DNA of 64,000 bases. Source: Haloarcula marina. GTDB taxonomy: Archaea; Halobacteriota; Halobacteria; Halobacteriales; Haloarculaceae. The stretch covers positions 1,860,001-1,924,000 of the forward strand of contig NZ_CP100404.1 in assembly GCF_024218775.1 (NCBI RefSeq), in the 5' to 3' direction. The translations under genes were made by a program, and so were the position numbers. Of the stretch, positions 7,970 to 48,881 are shown piece after piece; within the stretch, counting starts at the first letter, position 1; each line of letters opens with the position of its first letter. Under the pieces are notes generated by a model that was not told the origin of the DNA, ran no database searches, and saw only the letters and a list, made by a program, of their open reading frames with translations.

Positions 7970-8761
7970 TCAGCGCATCCCCGGCGGCGGGCCGCGGTCT
8001 CTGGGGTCGTCGTCGGCGTCCTCCTCCTCCAAGTCGATGCCCGCTTCCTTGCGCTTGCGCTTGACCGCCTGCAGTTGGCGGTAGTAGTACAGCGACCCGC
8101 CCCCGCCGACGAGGACGGCGACGAGGACGAGACCGCCGAAGATGAGCAGGTCGCGTTCGAGGTAGTAGCGGACCTGTATCTGCCGGGCGGTCACCGGTTC
8201 GCTCCACCGGACGGTCATGCGGTTCGTCGAGTCGTCGACGCTAGTCTCGTAGCTCCCGGGACTCACCTGCGAGAGCAGGGGGATACCGACGCGAGCGCCG
8301 GGCGGAAGCGTGACGGTGTAGGTGGCGTCACCGAGATGGGCGGGCGTCGCGTAGGACTTCCCGTTGCGGGGCGCGCTGTAAGCCACCTGTCCGGTGACGT
8401 TGTCGGGGAACACGATGGTCGTCTGACTGCCGCCCTGCGTCGCCGTCAGCGAGGAGTTGGCGGCGCTGATGACCGTCCCGTTCTCGTACCGGAACCGGAG
8501 CGCGCGGATCGGGACGTTCTGCTCGCGGCCGAGGCCGTCGCGGTCGTACACCACGAAGGTCGAGTTGTTCCGGATGTCGTAGACGGCGCGGTACGAGGAG
8601 CGGTCGAGGACGATAGACGCGTCGGCGTCGCTGTCCCAGTCGTAACTGGCGTTTTCGTTGAGACGACCAGGGTCGGCCTCCTGCGGACCGAACAGGCCGG
8701 TACACCCCGACAGCGCGAGGAGCGCGACGACGCCGAGCAGAGCGAGGTAGCGGCGGGACAT
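7970..8761 (-). CDS. DUF5803 family lipoprotein
   Basis: A 263-residue exported protein of unknown function. The signal ends in lipobox LSGC (about residue 19). The middle is a beta-rich extracellular domain, with strands such as ASIVLDRSSYRAVYDI and ATYTVTLPPGARVGIPLLSQVSPGSYE. A membrane span DLLIFGGLVLVAVLVGGGGSLYYY (about 205-228) leads to a short basic then acidic cytoplasmic tail. This layout fits the haloarchaeal family I know as DUF5803. It is 3 bases downstream of the DUF2110 gene, so it probably belongs to the TFE-DUF2110 transcript. Confidence 0.8.
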   Translation of the reverse strand: MSRRYLALLGVVALLALSGCTGLFGPQEADPGRLNENASYDWDSDADASIVLDRSSYRAVYDIRNNSTFVVYDRDGLGREQNVPIRALRFRYENGTVISAANSSLTATQGGSQTTIVFPDNVTGQVAYSAPRNGKSYATPAHLGDATYTVTLPPGARVGIPLLSQVSPGSYETSVDDSTNRMTVRWSEPVTARQIQVRYYLERDLLIFGGLVLVAVLVGGGGSLYYYRQLQAVKRKRKEAGIDLEEEDADDDPRDRGPPPGMR

Positions 8762-8764
8762 CGC

Positions 8765-9436
8765 TCAGGGGACGACGGCGAGCAACTCCGAGGCCATGTA
8801 TTTCCCGATGTCAGCCAGCAGACCCGGAGCGTCGGTGTCTGGGTTGCAAACGATACTCTGTTCGAGGAGGCCGAGTCGCTCGACGGTGACGATGTCCTGT
8901 GCGTGCCCGGCGCGGTTGACCGTCGCGCGGGCGTTCGAGCGCGTGACGCTGTTGGCGTTGACGCGGCCGTTGCCACGGGACCACTCGTACAGGCGGTCGA
9001 CCTCCTCGTCGGCGAGTCGCGGTTCGTCACCGGCGACGAAACGCAGGGGGAGGTGCTGGACGAGGCCGAATCGCTTGCGAATCTGGGCGGGCGACCCCTG
9101 CCCGAGATTGAGGCCGGATGCGGGGACTCGTACGGTCTGTCCGAAGCCAACGTCGAGGACGAATCCGTCGTCGTCCCAGCTATCGAGCGTGCCGACGTAC
9201 GTCTCGCCGTCCTCGTGGGTCGTCACCATCTCGCCGAACTCCTCGCGCAGGAGGTTACGCGCGACGGTGGCGTCCGGGCCGTCGACGGTGACCGCCGGGA
9301 AGTCGTCTTCGCGGTGGCCGACGTCGAACTCCACGTCGAGTTCGCCGAGTTCGTTCGCAACGAGCGACCGCAGGCCGTCTAAGGCGCGGTCACGGGCGTC
9401 GCCCGTGACGTAAACCTTGGAACCGAGAACGACCAT
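8765..9436 (-). CDS. DUF2110 family protein
   Basis: A 223-residue soluble protein of an archaeal family with no assigned activity. Recognisable segments are MVVLGSKVYVTGDARDRALD at the start, VGTLDSWDDDGFVLDVGFGQTVRVP in the middle and IGKYMASELLAVVP at the end. The start codon shares one base with the stop of the TFE gene (TGATG), indicating translational coupling. A constant partner of a basal transcription factor is a candidate for a role in transcription or translation, but this is inference. Confidence 0.85.
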   Translation of the reverse strand: MVVLGSKVYVTGDARDRALDGLRSLVANELGELDVEFDVGHREDDFPAVTVDGPDATVARNLLREEFGEMVTTHEDGETYVGTLDSWDDDGFVLDVGFGQTVRVPASGLNLGQGSPAQIRKRFGLVQHLPLRFVAGDEPRLADEEVDRLYEWSRGNGRVNANSVTRSNARATVNRAGHAQDIVTVERLGLLEQSIVCNPDTDAPGLLADIGKYMASELLAVVP

Positions 9437-9966
9437 CAGGCCTCGGCGTTGGTGTCGACGTTCAGTTCGTCACGGAGTTCCGCGAGTCGCTCCTCCATGG
9501 CGGTGACGAGGCGTGTGTTCTCCATCGCCTCGACCTGATTCCCGCACTGGGGGCACTCGAACCCGAACTCCATTGCCTCGCCGAACTCGAATCGGATGCC
9601 GCAGTGCTCACAGAGGTAGAACTCGTTGTCCATCTCGTACTCGCGGCGCTCTTCGAGTCCTTCGAGGAGGCGGTACATCTCCGATTCCAGTTGCTCGGGA
9701 ATCTCCTCGTACTCGAAGGTCCAGAGGTACGTGAGCCACCCGGAGTCCTCGTCGCGGAGGCGGCGGTACGACGCGAGGTCGTTCTCGTAGAGAATAAAGA
9801 GTGCGCGACGAACGTCGTTGAGTTCGAGGCCGAGTTCCTCCGCCAACTCTTCGTCGGTCACTTCGCCGTCCGGCGGCGCGGCGGCGACCGGCATCCCTTT
9901 CGGTCCGACCAGTTCGTGGAGGTACTTCTGTATCACGGGGTCCTCCAAGAGGTCCTCAAAAGCCAT
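9436..9966 (-). CDS. tfe: Transcription initiation factor TFE, alpha subunit
   Basis: A 176-residue basal transcription factor that helps RNA polymerase open the promoter with TBP and TFB. The N-terminal winged helix (about residues 5-85: LLEDPVIQKYLHELVG, TDEELAEELGLELNDVRRALFILYENDL) is followed by a helix and a C-terminal zinc ribbon with CEHCG and CPQCG pairs (about 117-145). Both cysteine pairs are intact. I chose the ATG at 9966 (MAFEDLLED), which starts at the family homology; the longer frame to 10002 adds unrelated residues. It heads a tightly packed run with DUF2110 and DUF5803. Confidence 0.93.
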   Translation of the reverse strand: MAFEDLLEDPVIQKYLHELVGPKGMPVAAAPPDGEVTDEELAEELGLELNDVRRALFILYENDLASYRRLRDEDSGWLTYLWTFEYEEIPEQLESEMYRLLEGLEERREYEMDNEFYLCEHCGIRFEFGEAMEFGFECPQCGNQVEAMENTRLVTAMEERLAELRDELNVDTNAEA

Positions 9967-40281: not shown

Positions 40282-41625
40282 ATGGGACCTGATACCAATC
40301 GGCGAACGTTCCTCAAGCGCACCGGCGCGCTCACCAGCCTCAGCCTCGTCGGGCTCTCAGGCTGTTCGACACAACCGAGCGACGGCGGCGACGGCGGAGA
40401 TGGCGGTGGCGGCGACGGCGGAGATGGCGGTGGCGGCGAGACGCCGGACGTGCTGATGATCGTTGGGTACCCACAGAGCGGTGTCCAACTGTTCAAGGAC
40501 TTCTACTCGGATTACGGCGACGACACCGTCGACATCCTCGTCACGGACGGGTTGCAGGACGGCAGTCTCCCCGGCGACGTGGGCAACGACATGTCCAACG
40601 TGCAGGGGACAGCGCCGTCCGCGGCCGGTCCGGGCGTCGATTTCTTCGGCGACCTGTTCCTGGAGGAGTTCGACTACGAGGAAGTGGGCGTGTTCACTTC
40701 CCAAGCCTACGACGCTTCGGCGGTCCAGATTCTCGCCAACCTGATGGCCGGGGAGAACGACGGCACGGCCATCCGCGACCACATGCGCGTCGTCGCCAAC
40801 CCCGGCGGGACGGCCTACGGACCGTCGGAACTCCCCGAAGCGGCCGAAGCGGCCGCCGCCGGGGAGAACATCCAGTACGAAGGGGCCTCCAGCAACGTCA
40901 ACTTCGACGAGGCTGGCGACATTACCTCCGCGCAGTATCAGGTGTTCGGCTTCTCCGAGGACGGCGTCGAGACGAGAGATACCGTCGATTTCGGTGGTTC
41001 CGGAGAGATTCCACAGCCAGAACCACAGGGGAGCGGCAGCGGCGCTGACCGGACGGTCCGACTCGGCATCCTGCAACCGGAGACCGGTGACCTCGGTCCG
41101 CTCGGCGTGGCGATTCGCGACGGCGCACTGCTGCCCGCGATTCAACTCCGCGACAGCATCGACCAGACCATCGAGACGCAGGTCGGTGACACCCAGTCGA
41201 CGGCGCAGGCGGCCGTCAACGCCGCGAACTCGCTGGTAAGCGCCGGGTTCCCCTCGATTACGGGTCCCGCTGGCTCCGAAGCGACGATTCAGACCGCCCG
41301 GAACGTCTACGTCGACAATCAGGTCGTCGGGTGCTCGCCGTCGGCCACCTCGCCCGATATAACCGACGTGGACGACGACGACTTCCTGTTCCGGACGCCG
41401 CCGAGCGACGCGCTGCAGGGACAGGTGCTCGCACAGGTGGCGACCGAAGAACTCGGCGCGTCGACGGCGTCGACGCTGTACCTCAACAACAGCTACGGCC
41501 AAGCCCTCCAGGAGAGCTTCGTCACCGCGTTCGAAGATGTGGGCGGGAGCATCGTCCAACAGGTCGGCTTCGAGTCACAGCAGTCCTCGTACACCTCGCA
41601 ACTCAACAGCGCGCTGAACCAGTAG
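40282..41625 (+). CDS. Circularly permuted branched-chain-type ABC substrate-binding lipoprotein
   Basis: A 447-residue exported protein. Tat-like RRTFLKR and lipobox LSGC lead to an Asp/Gly-rich linker. The periplasmic-binding domain (Peripla_BP_6/LivJ type) is in swapped order. Residues 54-235 (TPDVLMIVGYPQSG... FTSQAYDASAVQIL... VFGFSEDG) correspond to the usual C-terminal half. After a PQPEPQGSGSGADR linker, residues 254-447 (TVRLGILQPETGDLG... SYTSQLNSALNQ) correspond to the usual N-terminal half. The halves together are complete, about 375 residues. It faces livF on the opposite strand 27 bases away and is the likely binding protein of that transporter. Confidence 0.85.
   Translation: MGPDTNRRTFLKRTGALTSLSLVGLSGCSTQPSDGGDGGDGGGGDGGDGGGGETPDVLMIVGYPQSGVQLFKDFYSDYGDDTVDILVTDGLQDGSLPGDVGNDMSNVQGTAPSAAGPGVDFFGDLFLEEFDYEEVGVFTSQAYDASAVQILANLMAGENDGTAIRDHMRVVANPGGTAYGPSELPEAAEAAAAGENIQYEGASSNVNFDEAGDITSAQYQVFGFSEDGVETRDTVDFGGSGEIPQPEPQGSGSGADRTVRLGILQPETGDLGPLGVAIRDGALLPAIQLRDSIDQTIETQVGDTQSTAQAAVNAANSLVSAGFPSITGPAGSEATIQTARNVYVDNQVVGCSPSATSPDITDVDDDDFLFRTPPSDALQGQVLAQVATEELGASTASTLYLNNSYGQALQESFVTAFEDVGGSIVQQVGFESQQSSYTSQLNSALNQ
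40384..40431. repeat. 24-bp tandem repeat, two exact copies
   Basis: Bases 40384-40407 and 40408-40431 are identical and encode the Asp/Gly-rich linker after the lipobox of the substrate-binding protein. Both units are a multiple of three, so copy number can change without a frameshift. The linker directly precedes the permutation joint. Confidence 0.9.
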
Positions 41626-41652: not shown

Positions 41653-42408
41653 CTATCCGCCGAGGAAGTCCTGTCTGACCTGCTGGTCGTGGAGGAGGGT
41701 GTCGCCGGTGTCCTGATACCGGTTCTGTCCCTGCACGAGGACGTAGCCCCGGTCACAGCGCCGCAGCGCCTCCTTCGCGTTCTGCTCGACCATCAGGACG
41801 GCCGTCCCGTCGTCGTTGATGCCGTCGATGCGGTCGAACATCTCTTCGACGAGGTCCGGGGCCAACCCCGCGGACGGTTCGTCGAGCAACAGGAGGTCCG
41901 GGTCGAGCATCAGCGCGCGGCCCATCGCCAGCATCTGCTGTTGGCCGCCCGAGAGCGTGCCCGCTTTCTGGGTCGAGCGCTCTTCGAGAATCGGGAACCG
42001 GTCGTAGACGGCGCGAATCTGGTCTTCGGGAACTTCGTCTAGGATGTACGCCCCCATCTCCAAGTTCTCGCGGACGCTCAGCGACCCGAACACGTTGTCG
42101 TTCTGGGGGACGAAGCCGATGCCCTCGTGGATGATTTGGTCGGGCCGCCGCTGGGCGATGTCCGTGCCGTCGAAGACCACCTCGCCGCCCATGTACGTCG
42201 TCAGACCGAAGACGGACTTCATCACCGTCGACTTGCCCGCGCCGTTCGGGCCGACGATGACGACGTACTCGCTCTCACCAACGTCCATGTCGACGCCGTC
42301 GAGCACTTGCAGGTCGCCGTACCCGGCGTCTAAGTCCCGTACCGCGAGCAGGCTCTCGGACGGGTCTCCCAACGTCACGTCGGCGGACCGCTGGGCCTGC
42401 TGGCTCAT
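41653..42408 (-). CDS. livF: Branched-chain amino acid-type ABC transporter ATPase
   Basis: A 251-residue cytoplasmic ABC ATPase. Walker A is VGPNGAGKSTVMKSVFG, the signature is LSGGQQQMLAMGRALM, and Walker B is LLLDEPSAGLAP. VFGSLSVRENLEMGAYI and LMVEQNAKEALRRCDRGYVLVQG identify the LivF subgroup. It is the last gene of livH-livM-livG-livF, sharing ATGA with livG. Confidence 0.93.
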   Translation of the reverse strand: MSQQAQRSADVTLGDPSESLLAVRDLDAGYGDLQVLDGVDMDVGESEYVVIVGPNGAGKSTVMKSVFGLTTYMGGEVVFDGTDIAQRRPDQIIHEGIGFVPQNDNVFGSLSVRENLEMGAYILDEVPEDQIRAVYDRFPILEERSTQKAGTLSGGQQQMLAMGRALMLDPDLLLLDEPSAGLAPDLVEEMFDRIDGINDDGTAVLMVEQNAKEALRRCDRGYVLVQGQNRYQDTGDTLLHDQQVRQDFLGG

Positions 42409-43259
42409 ACGTCACCTCCGAGGTACGCCTCGAGAACGCGTTCGTCCGACTGAATCGTTGCCGCGTCCCCTTCCGCGAGGACGCTCCCCTGATGCATCAC
42501 GATGATGTGTTCGCAGTGGTTCATGATGACGTCCATGTCGTGTTCGACCAGCAGGAAGGTCAGCCCCTGCTGGCGCAGTTCGTCGATGCGGTCCAGCAGT
42601 TTCTCCTCTAACGTTGGGTTGACCCCGGCCAGCGGTTCGTCAAGCAGGACCATCTCGGGGTCTGTCATCAGGACGCGAGCCATCTCCAGCAGTTTGCGCT
42701 GCCCTCCGGAGAGCGTCCCGGCGTTCTCGTGGGCGAGGTGGTCGATTTCGAAGAACTCCAGCGTCTCCCACGCGTCCTCGACGACGCCCATCTCGTCCTG
42801 CTGGACCTGTTCGCGCAGGCCCGGCACGACGGAGCGAATCGCCGACTCTCCCATCTGGCCGGGCGGCGCGAGCATCACGTTCTCCAAGACGGTCATCTCC
42901 GAGAGTTCGCGGGCGATTTGGAACGTGCGGACGAGGCCGCGTTCGGCCAGCGTGTAGGGCGCGAATCCGGTCACGTCCTGCCCGTCGAAGGTGACGGTCC
43001 CGGCGGTGGGTTCGTGGATACCCGTGATGCAGTTGAACGTCGTCGACTTTCCCGCCCCGTTCGGGCCGATGAGGCCCGTGAACGACCCCTGCTGGACCTT
43101 GAACGAGGCCCCGTCGATGGCGGTAACTCCACCGAACTCCTTCCGGAGGCCCTCGACTTCGAGTAGCGGTGATTCGACGGCCTCGCTCGTCGTCGGCACG
43201 TCGGACTCGGGCGTCTGTTCCGTCCCTGCAACCTCGGCTTCGGCGCTGGTGTTACTCAT
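42405..43259 (-). CDS. livG: Branched-chain amino acid-type ABC transporter ATPase
   Basis: A 284-residue ABC ATPase with an acidic N-terminal extension of about 30 residues. Walker A is IGPNGAGKSTTFNCITG, the signature LSGGQRKLLEMARVLM, and Walker B VLLDEPLAGVNP. RGLVRTFQIARELSEMTVLENVMLA and LVEHDMDVIMNHCEHIIVMHQG identify LivG. It works with LivF to power import through LivH-LivM. Its start overlaps livM by 8 bases. Confidence 0.93.
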   Translation of the reverse strand: MSNTSAEAEVAGTEQTPESDVPTTSEAVESPLLEVEGLRKEFGGVTAIDGASFKVQQGSFTGLIGPNGAGKSTTFNCITGIHEPTAGTVTFDGQDVTGFAPYTLAERGLVRTFQIARELSEMTVLENVMLAPPGQMGESAIRSVVPGLREQVQQDEMGVVEDAWETLEFFEIDHLAHENAGTLSGGQRKLLEMARVLMTDPEMVLLDEPLAGVNPTLEEKLLDRIDELRQQGLTFLLVEHDMDVIMNHCEHIIVMHQGSVLAEGDAATIQSDERVLEAYLGGDV

Positions 43260-44535
43260 CGTCCGACCCCCCGTCAGCGGCGCGCGGCCGCGTCAAGTCG
43301 ACGCTCGCGGCCGGTTCGTTCCGGTGGCCCATCAGGCCGTCCGGTTGGCGCTGGATGATGTAGATGAGCACGACGCCGATGAGGACGAACCGGAGCGTGC
43401 TGACGTTGCTCACCGTGTACGCGACGATGGGCGTCACGTCCAGCGACCCGAGCGCGGCGATGGCCTCGACGATGTTACCGGGCGAACTCGTCCCGAACGT
43501 CGGGAAGTACTCCCCGAGTCGTGCCGGGAGGTAGAACAACAGCGCCGCGAACGTGGCCGCGCCGAGGATGCTCCCCGTGTTGGACCCGGAGCCACCGAGG
43601 ATGAGCGCGGCGAACACGTAGAACGTTATCGCCGGGCGAAACTGCGCGGGGCTGATGTAGCCCGCGCTCCCGCGGAACAAGACGCCCGCCAACCCCATCA
43701 GCGCACAGCCAATCATGAACGCCTTGATTTTGAACAGGCGGGTGTCCTTGCCCAGCGACTGCGTGACCTGTTCGTCCTCGCGGATGGCCTTCAAGACGCG
43801 ACCGAAGGGCGAGTTGACGAGTCGGCTGAGAACCCAGTAGCTTCCGGCGACGACGACCAACAGACAGAGGCCGTAGACGATGTTGACGACGTTCGGTCCG
43901 GAGATGCCGACGCTCTCGGCGGCCGCGACCAGCGGTGCGCCGAGGCCGTTGACGAGGTTCGCCACGATGTCGTCGGGGGCTGGGAACGCGATACCCGTCG
44001 CCCCGCCGGTGCCGAACCGCTTTCCGAACAGTTCAACCTCGGCGACGCCGTTCCAGTTGACGAACAGCCGGATAATCTCCGAGAGGGCGACGGTGACGAT
44101 TGCGAGGTAGTCCGCACGAAGGCGGAGGGCAGGGAGGGCGGCGATGCCCCCGACGATGGCGGCCATCACCATGCCGCCGAGTGCGCCGAGCCACAGGGGG
44201 AGGCCGAAGCCCGGAACGCCAGCGGACCCGGGGTCCGCGGGTGCCGTCAGAATCGCGGTGGTGTACGCGCCGACAGCCATGAACCCGGCGACGCCGATGT
44301 TGAACAGACCGGTGTACCCCCACTGGAGGTTCAGCGCCAGCGTCAGGATGGCGTACGCGCCGACGAGGACGGTCACGCTCCCGATGAATCCGGCGGCGAG
44401 GTTCGCTCCCTGCTCACCGCCGACGCTGAACGCGAAGGCGGCGAGAAGCACCCAGATACCGAGGATGAACAACCCGACGAGCGCGGCGTCGGGGAGTTCG
44501 TCCACCCGCGTCCGAACGTCGTCCATCGCGCTCAT
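43252..44535 (-). CDS. livM: Branched-chain amino acid-type ABC transporter permease
   Basis: A 427-residue integral membrane protein with about ten spans. The segments GYTGLFNIGVAGFMAVGAYTTAIL and RADYLAIVTVALSEIIRLFVNW, and the coupling loop FGRVLKAIREDEQVTQSLGKDTRLFKIKAFM, are typical of LivM. A long soluble C-terminal tail continues past the last span. ATGA overlap with livH. Confidence 0.93.
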   Translation of the reverse strand: MSAMDDVRTRVDELPDAALVGLFILGIWVLLAAFAFSVGGEQGANLAAGFIGSVTVLVGAYAILTLALNLQWGYTGLFNIGVAGFMAVGAYTTAILTAPADPGSAGVPGFGLPLWLGALGGMVMAAIVGGIAALPALRLRADYLAIVTVALSEIIRLFVNWNGVAEVELFGKRFGTGGATGIAFPAPDDIVANLVNGLGAPLVAAAESVGISGPNVVNIVYGLCLLVVVAGSYWVLSRLVNSPFGRVLKAIREDEQVTQSLGKDTRLFKIKAFMIGCALMGLAGVLFRGSAGYISPAQFRPAITFYVFAALILGGSGSNTGSILGAATFAALLFYLPARLGEYFPTFGTSSPGNIVEAIAALGSLDVTPIVAYTVSNVSTLRFVLIGVVLIYIIQRQPDGLMGHRNEPAASVDLTRPRAADGGSDDE

Positions 44536-45644
44536 GCCGTCGTCACCCCCCCGAAGATGCCGGACGGGCGGAGCAACAGGACGACGATGAGCACCACGAA
44601 CACCGCGGCGCGAGTCAGTCCCGACGGCAACCAGATGAGGGCGAGGCTGTCGACCAGTCCGATGAGGACGCCGCCCGCCATCGCGCCGTAGATAGAGCCG
44701 ATGCCGCCGACGATAACCGCGGCGAAGATGAGCAAGAGGAGAATCCAGCCGAAGTTAAACGAGATAGTGCCGCTTTCGAGAACGAGGAGATAGCCGCTGA
44801 CACCTGCGAGCGCGCCCCCGAGAATCCACGTCAGGCGGATGACGCGCTCGGTGGGAATCCCCGTGACGCGCGCTAAGTCTTCGTTGTCGGCCATCGCCCG
44901 CATCGCCTTGCCCAGTTTCGTCCGCTGGAGCAGGACGTGGACGGCGAGCATGAGGACGACGGAGACGACCAGCAGCGTCAGTTCGTTGTCGGTGATGGCG
45001 ACGCCCGCGGCCAACTGCAGGCGCGCGCCGCTTGAGGCGACGCCGCTGGTTTGGGTCCCGAAGACGAACGCGACGAGATAGCGAAGCGCCAGCGCGACGC
45101 CGATAGAGGCGATGAGCAAGGAGATGTTGCCCGAGTCCCGCATCGGGCGGTAGGTGAATCGGTCGACGAGGAAGACGACGCCGACGGTGCCGACGCCCGC
45201 CACGATAAGTCCGAGGAGGACGGGGCCGAACGTCGAGACGAGGCTCAGTTGCGGGCCGCCGTTGAACAGGAACAGGTCCGCGATGGGGGCGGTGCCGAGA
45301 CCAGCGACGACGTAGGCGGCCACCCATCCGAGGAACGCGCCGACGGTGACGGTGTCACCGTGTGCGAAGTTGGCGAAGTCGAGGATGCTGTACGTCATCG
45401 AGAGACCGATACCCGCGAGGCCGACGGCGAGGCCGACGAGGATTCCGTCTAAGACCATCGACGCCAGCGACCCGACGGTCAGTGACCCGCCTATCATTCG
45501 GAAGCCAAACGCGTACACGGTGGTCCCTATCAGTTTCGTCGCGAGGTCGGCTACAAGATACACGAGAACGACGGCGACGACACCGGTTCCGGGCCGTTCG
45601 ACCGCGAACCGTCGACCGTCGGAGACTGTTTCGGCGATACCCAT
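44532..45644 (-). CDS. livH: Branched-chain amino acid-type ABC transporter permease
   Basis: A 370-residue membrane permease with about eight to nine spans. IGLSMTYSILDFANFAHGDTVTVGAFLGW and the coupling loop KLGKAMRAMADNEDLARVTGIPTERVIRLTW mark the LivH subgroup. ATG 45644 starts the homologous protein; the reading frame runs on upstream across other genes as antisense shadow. It is the first gene of the operon; a TTATTTACG stretch about 30 bases upstream (near 45674-45682) is a likely TATA box. Confidence 0.93.
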   Translation of the reverse strand: MGIAETVSDGRRFAVERPGTGVVAVVLVYLVADLATKLIGTTVYAFGFRMIGGSLTVGSLASMVLDGILVGLAVGLAGIGLSMTYSILDFANFAHGDTVTVGAFLGWVAAYVVAGLGTAPIADLFLFNGGPQLSLVSTFGPVLLGLIVAGVGTVGVVFLVDRFTYRPMRDSGNISLLIASIGVALALRYLVAFVFGTQTSGVASSGARLQLAAGVAITDNELTLLVVSVVLMLAVHVLLQRTKLGKAMRAMADNEDLARVTGIPTERVIRLTWILGGALAGVSGYLLVLESGTISFNFGWILLLLIFAAVIVGGIGSIYGAMAGGVLIGLVDSLALIWLPSGLTRAAVFVVLIVVLLLRPSGIFGGVTTA

Positions 45645-45737
45645 GCTTGGGGTTGCTTCGACGCTGGAACGTAAATAACTCTCCGATGGTTTTCGCGTCG
45701 AATCGCTGGCAAGAACGCCGGAGACCGGCGTCGTGTG

Positions 45738-45754
45738 CGACAGGTTAACTGTCG
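45738..45754. repeat. Inverted repeat upstream of the FAD/Fe-S dehydrogenase
   Basis: CGACAG, a five-base centre GTTAA, and CTGTCG form a perfect 6-bp inverted repeat 20-36 bases before the ATG at 45774. The AT-rich centre is where the TATA box should be, so a protein bound here would block TBP. Confidence 0.55.
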
Positions 45755-45773
45755 GGCGCGTGAAGTCGAACGT

Positions 45774-48700
45774 ATGGGCGCACTCGAGAAGGGACCGAGC
45801 GACGACCCGGCCGGTGACGAGCGAGCGGATTACGACTACCAGACCGGAACCGTCGCCCGTCCCGCACTCGTCGCGGACATCGCCGACAGCATCGACGGCG
45901 ACGTACGGTTCGACGACTACTCCCGGCAGTTGTACGCCACCGACGCCAGTGCCTACGAGGTGACGCCGATTGGCGTCGTCTTTCCGGAGTCGACTTCGGA
46001 CGTTGCGGCCGTGGTCGACTACTGTGCACGGCGGGAGATTCCGGTCCTGCCGCGCGGCGGCGGGACGAGTCTCGCTGGGCAGACGGTCAACGAGGCCGTC
46101 GTACTCGATTTCTCGAAGCGGATGGACGCGCTCCTGTCGGTCGACCCGGACGCTGCACTGGCGACTGCGCAGGTGGGCACTACGCTCGGCGACTTGAACG
46201 CCGAACTCGCACCGCACGGCCTGAAGTTCGCGCCGGACCCCGCGTGGGGCGACAAATCCGCGCTCGGCGGCGCAATCGGCAACAACTCCACCGGCGCGCA
46301 CTCCCTCCAGTACGGCAAGACCGACCACTACGTCGAGGAGTGCGAAGTCGTCCTCGCTGACGGCACGGTGACGACGTTCGGCGAGGTATCGGTCGAGACA
46401 CTCCGCGACGAAGGCGACCCCGACGGCACCCTCGAAGCGCGTATCTACGACGCCGTCGCCCGGGTCGTCGACGACGAACACGACGCCGTCGAATCGGCGT
46501 TCCCGGACCTCAAACGGAACGTCTCCGGCTACAACCTCGACCGCCTCGTCGCGGAGGCCGACGGCGAGTACGGCGAGGCGGGGACGGTCAATCTCGCCCG
46601 ACTGCTCGCGGGCAGCGAGGGGACGCTGGCCGTCGTCACCGAGGCCACCGTCTCGCTCGAACCGATACCGGAGACGAAGGCGCTGGCCCTCCTCACCTAC
46701 GACGACCTCGTCGCGGCGATGGAGGACGTGGCCCCGATTCTGGAACACGACCCCGCTGCCGTCGAGGTGTTGGACGACGTGCTGTTGGACCTCGCGGGGG
46801 ACACCGAGGAGTTCGGCGAGTTGGTCGACGAAATCGTCCCCGAGGGGACCGGCGCGGTGTTGCTCGTGGAGTTCTACGCCGAGAACGACCCGCAGGGAAA
46901 ACAGAAGGTGGCGGACTTGCTGGCCGACCGAGTCGCCGACGTGACGACGACGGGGGTCCCACAGGCGGACGCGGAGGGACTGACCGACGCTCCGCGGCGT
47001 GCCTTCCACGGCATGGAGGCCCACGACGAGGACAAGCGTGCGCGCTTCTGGAAGCTCCGGAAGTCCGGCCTGCCGATTCTGCTCGGCCGGACCAGCGACG
47101 CGAAACACATCAGTTTCATCGAGGACGCCGCCGTCCCGCCCGAGAACCTCCCGGAGTACGTCGAGGACTTCCAGGAGGTGCTGGACGACGCGGGGACCTT
47201 CGCCTCCTTCTACGCCCACGCCGGGCCGGGGTGTCTCCACATCCGTCCGCTCGTGAACACGAAGACTGTCGACGGCGTCGAGCAGATGGCGGCCATCGCC
47301 GACGGCGCGACGGACCTCGTCACGAAGTACGGCGGGAGCGTCTCGGGAGAACACGGTGACGGGCGCGCACGCACGCAGTGGAATCACAAACTGTACGGTG
47401 ACGAGGTCTGGGGCGTCTTTCAGGACCTGAAGACGGCGTTCGACCCCGATTGGCTCCTCAACCCCGGGCAGGTCGTCGGCGTCGACGAGGCGACCATAGC
47501 GGCCGGTGAAGCCCCGCTGCGGGCGCGCACCGTCGACATGACCGAGAATCTGCGGTTCTCGCCGGAGTACGACTTCGAGTACGACTTCGAACCCGAACTC
47601 TCGTGGGACAACGAGAACGGGATGCAGGGGATGGTCGAACTCTGTCACGGGTGTGGCGGATGTCGCGGCCCGCAGGAGACGACCGGCGGCGTGATGTGTC
47701 CGACCTATCGAGCGGCCGACGAGGAGATTACCGCCACGCGGGGCCGGGCGAACATGCTCCGGCAGGCGATGAGCGGTGACCTGCCGGAGGACCCGACGGA
47801 CGACGAGTTCGTCTCAGAGGTGATGGACCTCTGTATCGGCTGTAAGGGGTGTGCGAAGGACTGCCCGAGCGAAGTCGACATGGCGAAACTGAAGACGGAA
47901 GTCGAGCACGCCCACCATCAGGAACACGGGGCAAGCCTCCGCGACAAGGTTTTCGCCAACGTCGAGACGCTGAGTCGGGTCGGAAGCGCTCTCGCGCCCG
48001 TCTCGAACTTGGCCCAGAAGCTCCCGGGGAGCGACTACGTCACCGAAACGGTGCTCGGCATCGCCCGCGAGCGGGACCTCCCGACGTTCCGGCGGGAATC
48101 CTTCGTCGACTGGTGGGCTGACCGCGGACCGCAGGTCCCCGAAGCGGCGGCCGAGCGCCGCGCCCTGCTGTTCCCCGACACCTACAACAACTACAGCCAC
48201 CCCGCGGTGCTGAAAGCCGCCGTCGCCGTCCTCGAAGCGGCGGGGGTGCACGTCGCCGTTCCCGACGACGTGACCGCGTCGGGCCGGGCAGCACACTCGA
48301 AGGGGTTCATCGAGACGGCCCGCGAGCGCGCGGCGACAAACGTCGGAGCCCTCGAACGGTCTGTCCGGGACGGCTGGGACGTGGTCGTCGTCGAACCGTC
48401 CGACGCCGTGATGTTCCAGTCGGATTACCTCGACGTGTTGGGCCACGACCACGACGCGGCGACCACCGTCGCGGCTAACACATTCGGCGTCTGCGAGTAC
48501 CTCGACCGGTTCGCGCTGGACGCGAGCGTCGACTGGAACGGGGCCGCCGACTCGCTGACCTACCACGGCCACTGCCACCAAAAGGCGACGAAGAAAGACC
48601 ACCACGCCGTCGGCGTCCTCCGCCGCGCTGGCTACGAAGTCGACCCGCTGGACTCCGGGTGTTGCGGGATGGCCGGAAGCTTCGGCTACGAGCGCGAGCA

Positions 48701-48881
48701 CTACTCGATGAGCAAGGCCATCGCGAGAATCCTCTACGACCAAGTCGACGAGAGCGACGGCGACACCGTGGTCGCGCCCGGTGCATCCTGTCGAACCCAG
48801 TTGGGCGACCGACCAGGCGCCGAAGAACCGCCACATCCCATCGAAAAACTCGCAGACGCCGTCGGCCCGGCGACGCGGTAA
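45774..48881 (+). CDS. FAD-linked oxidase/Fe-S protein fusion (D-lactate/glycolate dehydrogenase type)
   Basis: A 1035-residue enzyme fusing a GlcD-like half and a GlcF-like half. Residues about 60-290 are the FAD-binding PCMH domain (PVLPRGGGTSLAGQTV, ALGGAIGNNSTGAHSLQYG), and about 320-570 the FAD oxidase C domain (SGEHGDGRARTQW). Then a ferredoxin pair (CHGCGGCRG..C, CIGCKGCAKDCP) and two CCG-type domains (HGHCHQKA.., DSGCCGMAGSFGYEREHY). It oxidises a D-2-hydroxyacid and passes electrons to the quinone pool, inferred to be menaquinone. ATG 45774 is used. Confidence 0.9.
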   Translation: MGALEKGPSDDPAGDERADYDYQTGTVARPALVADIADSIDGDVRFDDYSRQLYATDASAYEVTPIGVVFPESTSDVAAVVDYCARREIPVLPRGGGTSLAGQTVNEAVVLDFSKRMDALLSVDPDAALATAQVGTTLGDLNAELAPHGLKFAPDPAWGDKSALGGAIGNNSTGAHSLQYGKTDHYVEECEVVLADGTVTTFGEVSVETLRDEGDPDGTLEARIYDAVARVVDDEHDAVESAFPDLKRNVSGYNLDRLVAEADGEYGEAGTVNLARLLAGSEGTLAVVTEATVSLEPIPETKALALLTYDDLVAAMEDVAPILEHDPAAVEVLDDVLLDLAGDTEEFGELVDEIVPEGTGAVLLVEFYAENDPQGKQKVADLLADRVADVTTTGVPQADAEGLTDAPRRAFHGMEAHDEDKRARFWKLRKSGLPILLGRTSDAKHISFIEDAAVPPENLPEYVEDFQEVLDDAGTFASFYAHAGPGCLHIRPLVNTKTVDGVEQMAAIADGATDLVTKYGGSVSGEHGDGRARTQWNHKLYGDEVWGVFQDLKTAFDPDWLLNPGQVVGVDEATIAAGEAPLRARTVDMTENLRFSPEYDFEYDFEPELSWDNENGMQGMVELCHGCGGCRGPQETTGGVMCPTYRAADEEITATRGRANMLRQAMSGDLPEDPTDDEFVSEVMDLCIGCKGCAKDCPSEVDMAKLKTEVEHAHHQEHGASLRDKVFANVETLSRVGSALAPVSNLAQKLPGSDYVTETVLGIARERDLPTFRRESFVDWWADRGPQVPEAAAERRALLFPDTYNNYSHPAVLKAAVAVLEAAGVHVAVPDDVTASGRAAHSKGFIETARERAATNVGALERSVRDGWDVVVVEPSDAVMFQSDYLDVLGHDHDAATTVAANTFGVCEYLDRFALDASVDWNGAADSLTYHGHCHQKATKKDHHAVGVLRRAGYEVDPLDSGCCGMAGSFGYEREHYSMSKAIARILYDQVDESDGDTVVAPGASCRTQLGDRPGAEEPPHPIEKLADAVGPATR

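Follow-up and report, generated by a model that had tools for sequence, protein, structure and literature searches.

The closest described relatives of the protein reported here are LivJ and the leucine-binding proteins, the substrate-binding proteins (SBPs) of HAAT ABC importers (PF13458, Peripla_BP_6; PDB entries 3td9, 1usg, and 1z15), with which it shares a sequence family. It is encoded in a 64,000-nucleotide stretch of the Haloarcula marina genome (contig NZ_CP100404.1), referred to below as the window. The window SBP resembles the LivJ family in its lipoprotein secretion, in its LivFGMH partner genes, and in the presence of both halves of the fold, which can be aligned. It differs in that the halves are swapped at a loop in lobe 2 and the old termini are joined by a new linker, a topology that would place the tether on the other lobe. 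The window SBP is very probably a naturally permuted lipoprotein SBP of a LivFGHM-type (HAAT) importer, and the SBP gene of this locus was probably permuted independently three or four times at the same loop within Halobacteriales.

The protein and its locus

The SBP gene is present as a single copy within its own genome; its parts and its four transporter partners are given in Table 1. As in secreted, membrane-tethered LivJ-type SBPs, the sequence contains a twin-arginine pair and a lipobox cysteine (Cys28), with a weak TAT_signal_seq score of 14.7, just below the cut-off of 16.7.

Table 1. Features of the permuted SBP gene and the adjoining liv genes (positions in the window)
Feature	Position	Strand	Basis
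Circularly permuted LivJ-type (Peripla_BP_6) substrate-binding lipoprotein, 447 aa	40282..41625	+	ORF, profile and PDB matches, full-length conservation
Twin-arginine signal and lipobox (NRRTFLK...VGLSGC, Cys28)	40282..40365	+	Sequence; RR and C kept in relatives
Gly/Asp-rich tether, residues 29-53	40366..40440	+	Sequence; length varies among relatives
C-terminal half of SBP fold, now first (residues 54-236, PDVLMIVGYP...TVDFGG)	40441..40989	+	Profile match and alignment
New linker, old C-terminus to old N-terminus (residues ~237-253, SGEIPQPEPQGSGSGAD)	40990..41040	+	Not present as a unit in ordinary-order orthologues
N-terminal half of SBP fold, now last (residues 254-447, ...SSYTSQLNSALNQ)	41041..41622	+	Profile match and alignment
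LivF-type ATPase, convergent with SBP gene	41653..42408	-	LivF best match, below equivalog cut-off; synteny
LivG-type ATPase	42405..43259	-	NCBIfam match, synteny
LivM-type permease	43252..44535	-	NCBIfam match, synteny
LivH/UrtB-type permease	44532..45644	-	NCBIfam match, synteny

The best NCBIfam names of the four partners are LivF, LivG, LivM, and LivH/UrtB, all scoring under the equivalog cut-offs. The order SBP> <livF <livG <livM <livH is common to permuted and ordinary SBPs, and is also found at an ordinary homologue from outside Halobacteriales. A complete livFGMH set adjoins the SBP gene at 38 of an initial 42 loci and at 73 loci overall. Ordinary-order haloarchaeal orthologues (for example, loci L094, L092, L101, and L103) have the same neighbors in the same orientation and are mostly 45-63% identical to the permuted SBP in each half, but run N-to-C and lack the linker. 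Given this common locus arrangement, permuted and ordinary SBPs are positional orthologues rather than unrelated paralogues. Family, partners, and selection suggest that the window SBP functions as an ordinary lipoprotein SBP supplying LivHMGF; an amino acid or related compound is the ligand expected at the level of the family.

Diverging from the liv genes, positions 45735-48881 (+ strand) encode a 1048-residue fused FAD oxidase and iron-sulphur protein, whose best NCBIfam match, below cut-off, is the D-2-hydroxyglutarate dehydrogenase YdiJ. Its presence might point to a hydroxy-acid substrate, but in most other clades it is not next to the locus.

Order of the two halves

Pfam places positions 1-186 of the 343-position Peripla_BP_6 profile at residues 258-444 of the native window SBP, so that the N-terminal half of the family sits at the C-terminus of this protein. 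When the sequence is rejoined (residues 254-447 followed by 54-236), profile positions 1-311 of 343 are covered in one continuous match, and the score rises from 69.4 bits in native order to 83.2 bits (curated cut-off, 31.7). The rejoined sequence likewise gives one continuous match to ANF_receptor (24-351 of 353). PDB entry 3td9_A aligns to it in a single stretch spanning the junction (E 4e-14), while the unrotated protein is matched only half-wise (E 3e-10). Ordinary-order orthologues show the same two matches in the reverse arrangement, and 2-4 residues bridge the junction.

Half-by-half alignment with these orthologues shows that permuted and ordinary cores can be aligned across both halves, and thus that nothing has been lost. 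The window SBP passes the profile cut-off of LivJ-type proteins and contains segments of both lobes; its halves do not follow the ordinary N-to-C order, and it is therefore a permuted variant rather than a plain Peripla_BP_6 member. The first-pass annotation had proposed exchanged halves, apparently complete retention of the domain, restoration of the usual order on rejoining, and a linker at residues 236-253, all of which are borne out here, the linker to within a residue. It did not extend to the wide occurrence of the permuted form, to the ordinary orthologues at the same locus, or to the probable recurrence of the permutation at one loop. Profile matches and conservation suggest that the two halves form one continuous fold. 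AlphaFold2 models from two runs, with alignments restricted to sequences of the genus, have pLDDT values of 30 and 32, too low for the models to be usable.

Distribution, cut site, and number of origins

Of 31 congeneric genomes, 27 have a full-length permuted homologue, and such homologues are also present in several other families. Across Halobacteriales the permuted SBP is present in 159 of 392 sampled genomes, as counted from genome-table E-values (best E < 1e-85). Independently sequenced named strains have the same order, among them Halomicroarcula sp. SYNS111, with a complete chromosome. Values of dN/dS for each half are 0.04-0.26 in close pairs. With the order swapped, nothing lost, the old termini joined, and the arrangement conserved under selection, the data support a natural circular permutation that is real, in frame, and maintained by purifying selection. 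Outside Halobacteriales, none of the matches in 393 genomes of the phylum has the permuted order, all being ordinary. The permuted form was not found in the viral contigs searched, and a homologue on a bacterial plasmid (Tistrella) is of ordinary order.

Several variants of the gene were observed. Many Haloarcula species have a second, ordinary-order relative of the window SBP (second copies in genomes G012, G016, G027, and G028); on plasmid pHsi540 of Haloarcula sinaiiensis such a relative (L152, 5947-7146) adjoins an aminotransferase gene and its own liv genes, all in one direction. Tandem pairs of permuted SBP genes occur in one family, f17 (L077, 7688-10635; L078, 7499-10284; also genomes G065, G122, G184, G192, G197, G215, and G219). 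In L077 and L078 the lipobox cysteine is missing from one member of the pair, which may be secreted without a tether or anchored in another way. The same cysteine is absent from a permuted SBP of clade B (L054, 1396-2724) that has a Tat-like signal. A clade A permuted gene (L089, genome G189, 8146-9551) is broken within the N half by an insertion of ~1.4 kb, which encodes a 388-residue ORF that appears transposase-like by eye.

The cut is the same in all clades: the permuted chain begins no more than a few residues from PDxxxxxGYP and ends 2-5 residues past SYxSxLxxAL, motifs separated in ordinary proteins by only 2-4 residues. Based on alignment with 3td9 and the leucine-binding protein and on general knowledge of the fold, we take this to be a helix-to-next-strand loop inside lobe 2, facing away from the ligand. 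The new linkers vary in sequence and length from clade to clade, with those of clades C and D being alike (EPPGEGSDSGRT and EPQGDGSESGRT, respectively). With the exception of clade A, most end in a GR/DR-T stretch resembling the tether of ordinary proteins.

Permuted sequences were rejoined into ordinary order before trees were built. In the SBP tree (72 rows) permuted genes fall into four clades, A-D, separated by ordinary genes; the window SBP belongs to clade D. The four clades stay apart in separate trees of the N and C halves, and the same scatter of permuted loci is seen in a concatenated LivF+G+M+H tree that includes no SBP sequence. The scatter persists in trees of 102 SBPs and of 72 transporter loci. 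Starred branches of the SBP tree force three to four changes of order; in the best-supported SBP tree (75 rows) they force four, the bootstrap 5-95% range also being four. Clade A and its ordinary sisters have a common GFPQSG motif where other clades have GYP. The N half of clade A is 61% identical to these sisters and 48-51% identical to other permuted clades, and both of its halves are nearer to the sisters than to the other permuted clades.

AU tests rejected a single clade uniting the permuted genes, a grouping based on gene order independently of the tree (p=0.0036, SBP; p=4e-7, LivFGMH). Among subgroups picked after inspection of the tree, A+B was rejected (p=0.008 and 4.5e-5), B+C+D was weakly rejected (p=0.027), and the tests gave no firm rejection of C+D (p=0.067, 0.42, and 0.047). 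The number of origins is graded here because the union of C and D is not firmly rejected and their linkers are alike: we have high confidence that the permutation arose at least twice and good confidence in three independent origins, while a fourth is possible and clades C and D may represent one event.

An early haloarchaeon could instead have acquired the permutation once, with later reversals to ordinary order or mutual replacement of permuted and ordinary genes at the locus. One event is the simplest source of an identical cut everywhere, and a P/G...GRT pattern common to the linkers of C, D, and in part B fits it. We nevertheless consider it improbable: by parsimony a single gain would require nine reversals in both trees, where four gains otherwise suffice, the one-clade constraint is rejected for SBP and transporter alike, and replacement of the SBP alone would not give a matching scatter of the linked transporter genes. 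Gene conversion offers a way round the trees, if a permuted gene of single origin spread and its halves were then overwritten by local ordinary copies, leaving an appearance of polyphyly. Haloarchaea are polyploid and probably recombine frequently, and some species have ordinary paralogues elsewhere in the genome. Conversion would, however, have to cover nearly the whole length of both halves and leave the two concordant both mutually and with transporter genes that had escaped it, and we regard it as less probable still.

The constant cut would also be accounted for by fission and fusion, one of the two standard models of circular permutation (PMC3320104), in which the SBP was split once at the loop into two genes that were later re-fused in either order. 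Ordinary order would then have to be rebuilt many times, and a split SBP was not seen at the sampled loci, where the sole interrupted gene is the one holding the transposase-like insert; the chance of this model being correct is very small. An assembly artefact or a collapsed tandem duplication, the errors against which the first-pass annotation had cautioned, and likewise a decaying gene, can be set aside with near certainty. No point in their favor was found; the gene is single copy, its halves are under purifying selection, and its order recurs in dozens of independently assembled genomes, one of them the complete chromosome noted above. The reading preferred here is recurrent permutation at one orthologous locus.

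Proposed route and comparison with known systems

For recurrent permutation, the following topology is proposed. In ordinary relatives the chain runs from the N half to the C half. The permuted chain, after its Tat/lipobox signal and Gly/Asp tether, enters the fold in the short lobe 2 loop that links a helix (SYTSxLxxALxx) to a strand (PDxxxxxGYP), proceeds through the old C-terminus, the new linker, and the old N-terminus, and ends just past the same helix. The halves would be expected to come together as the two-lobed clamp typical of the family and pass substrate to LivHM, with the membrane tether joining the far pole of lobe 2 where ordinary proteins have it on lobe 1.

Each event most likely began with a tandem duplication and the in-frame fusion of the copies, so that the C-terminal tail of the first ran into the Gly-rich tether of the second; the product would then have been trimmed. 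The GR/DR-T linker ends would fit such a fusion of tail to tether. This route is unproven, since duplicated or split intermediates and relics were not found near the permuted genes at the sampled loci. When the surroundings of permuted genes were searched for leftover C or N halves, the hits proved to be tandem permuted paralogues or chance matches; the one at L054 lies opposite a phosphoglycerate kinase-like frame.

Repeated hits on one loop are improbable unless bias or selection acts; candidate causes are foldability, the position of the tether, and a bias in the DNA. A tentative proposal, which we advance with rather less than even confidence, is that this loop of one orthologous SBP was permuted on four independent occasions, favored because the lipid tether thereby moves off lobe 1 and onto lobe 2, or because local DNA (codons of the Gly/Asp-rich tether and tail) eases rearrangement. 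The locus would then constitute a natural replicate experiment.

No earlier report of a natural circularly permuted ABC SBP was found in the open-access papers searched, which is no proof of novelty. Linear homology tools assign only half of the permuted SBP to its family, and such cases can therefore stay hidden. The window SBP provides a natural example for which same-locus ordinary orthologues of related species serve as controls.

Circular permutation of a type I periplasmic-binding fold has also been described for engineered halves of the Thermotoga ribose-binding protein (PMC9815098). However, those are designed single lobes, whereas the window SBP is a natural full-length permutant. Permuted SBPs of this kind supply biosensor design with ready-made clamps of a type that is built there by hand. 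The same kind of rearrangement is known from swaposins, DNA methyltransferases, and transhydrogenases (reviewed in PMC3320104), and for the transhydrogenases independent fusions in different orders have been proposed (PMC3320104). In contrast to these systems, the haloarchaeal SBP would have been re-cut several times at the same loop, at one orthologous locus, and within one archaeal order. If three or four origins hold, it offers a rare replicated case for asking why one loop is used again and again.
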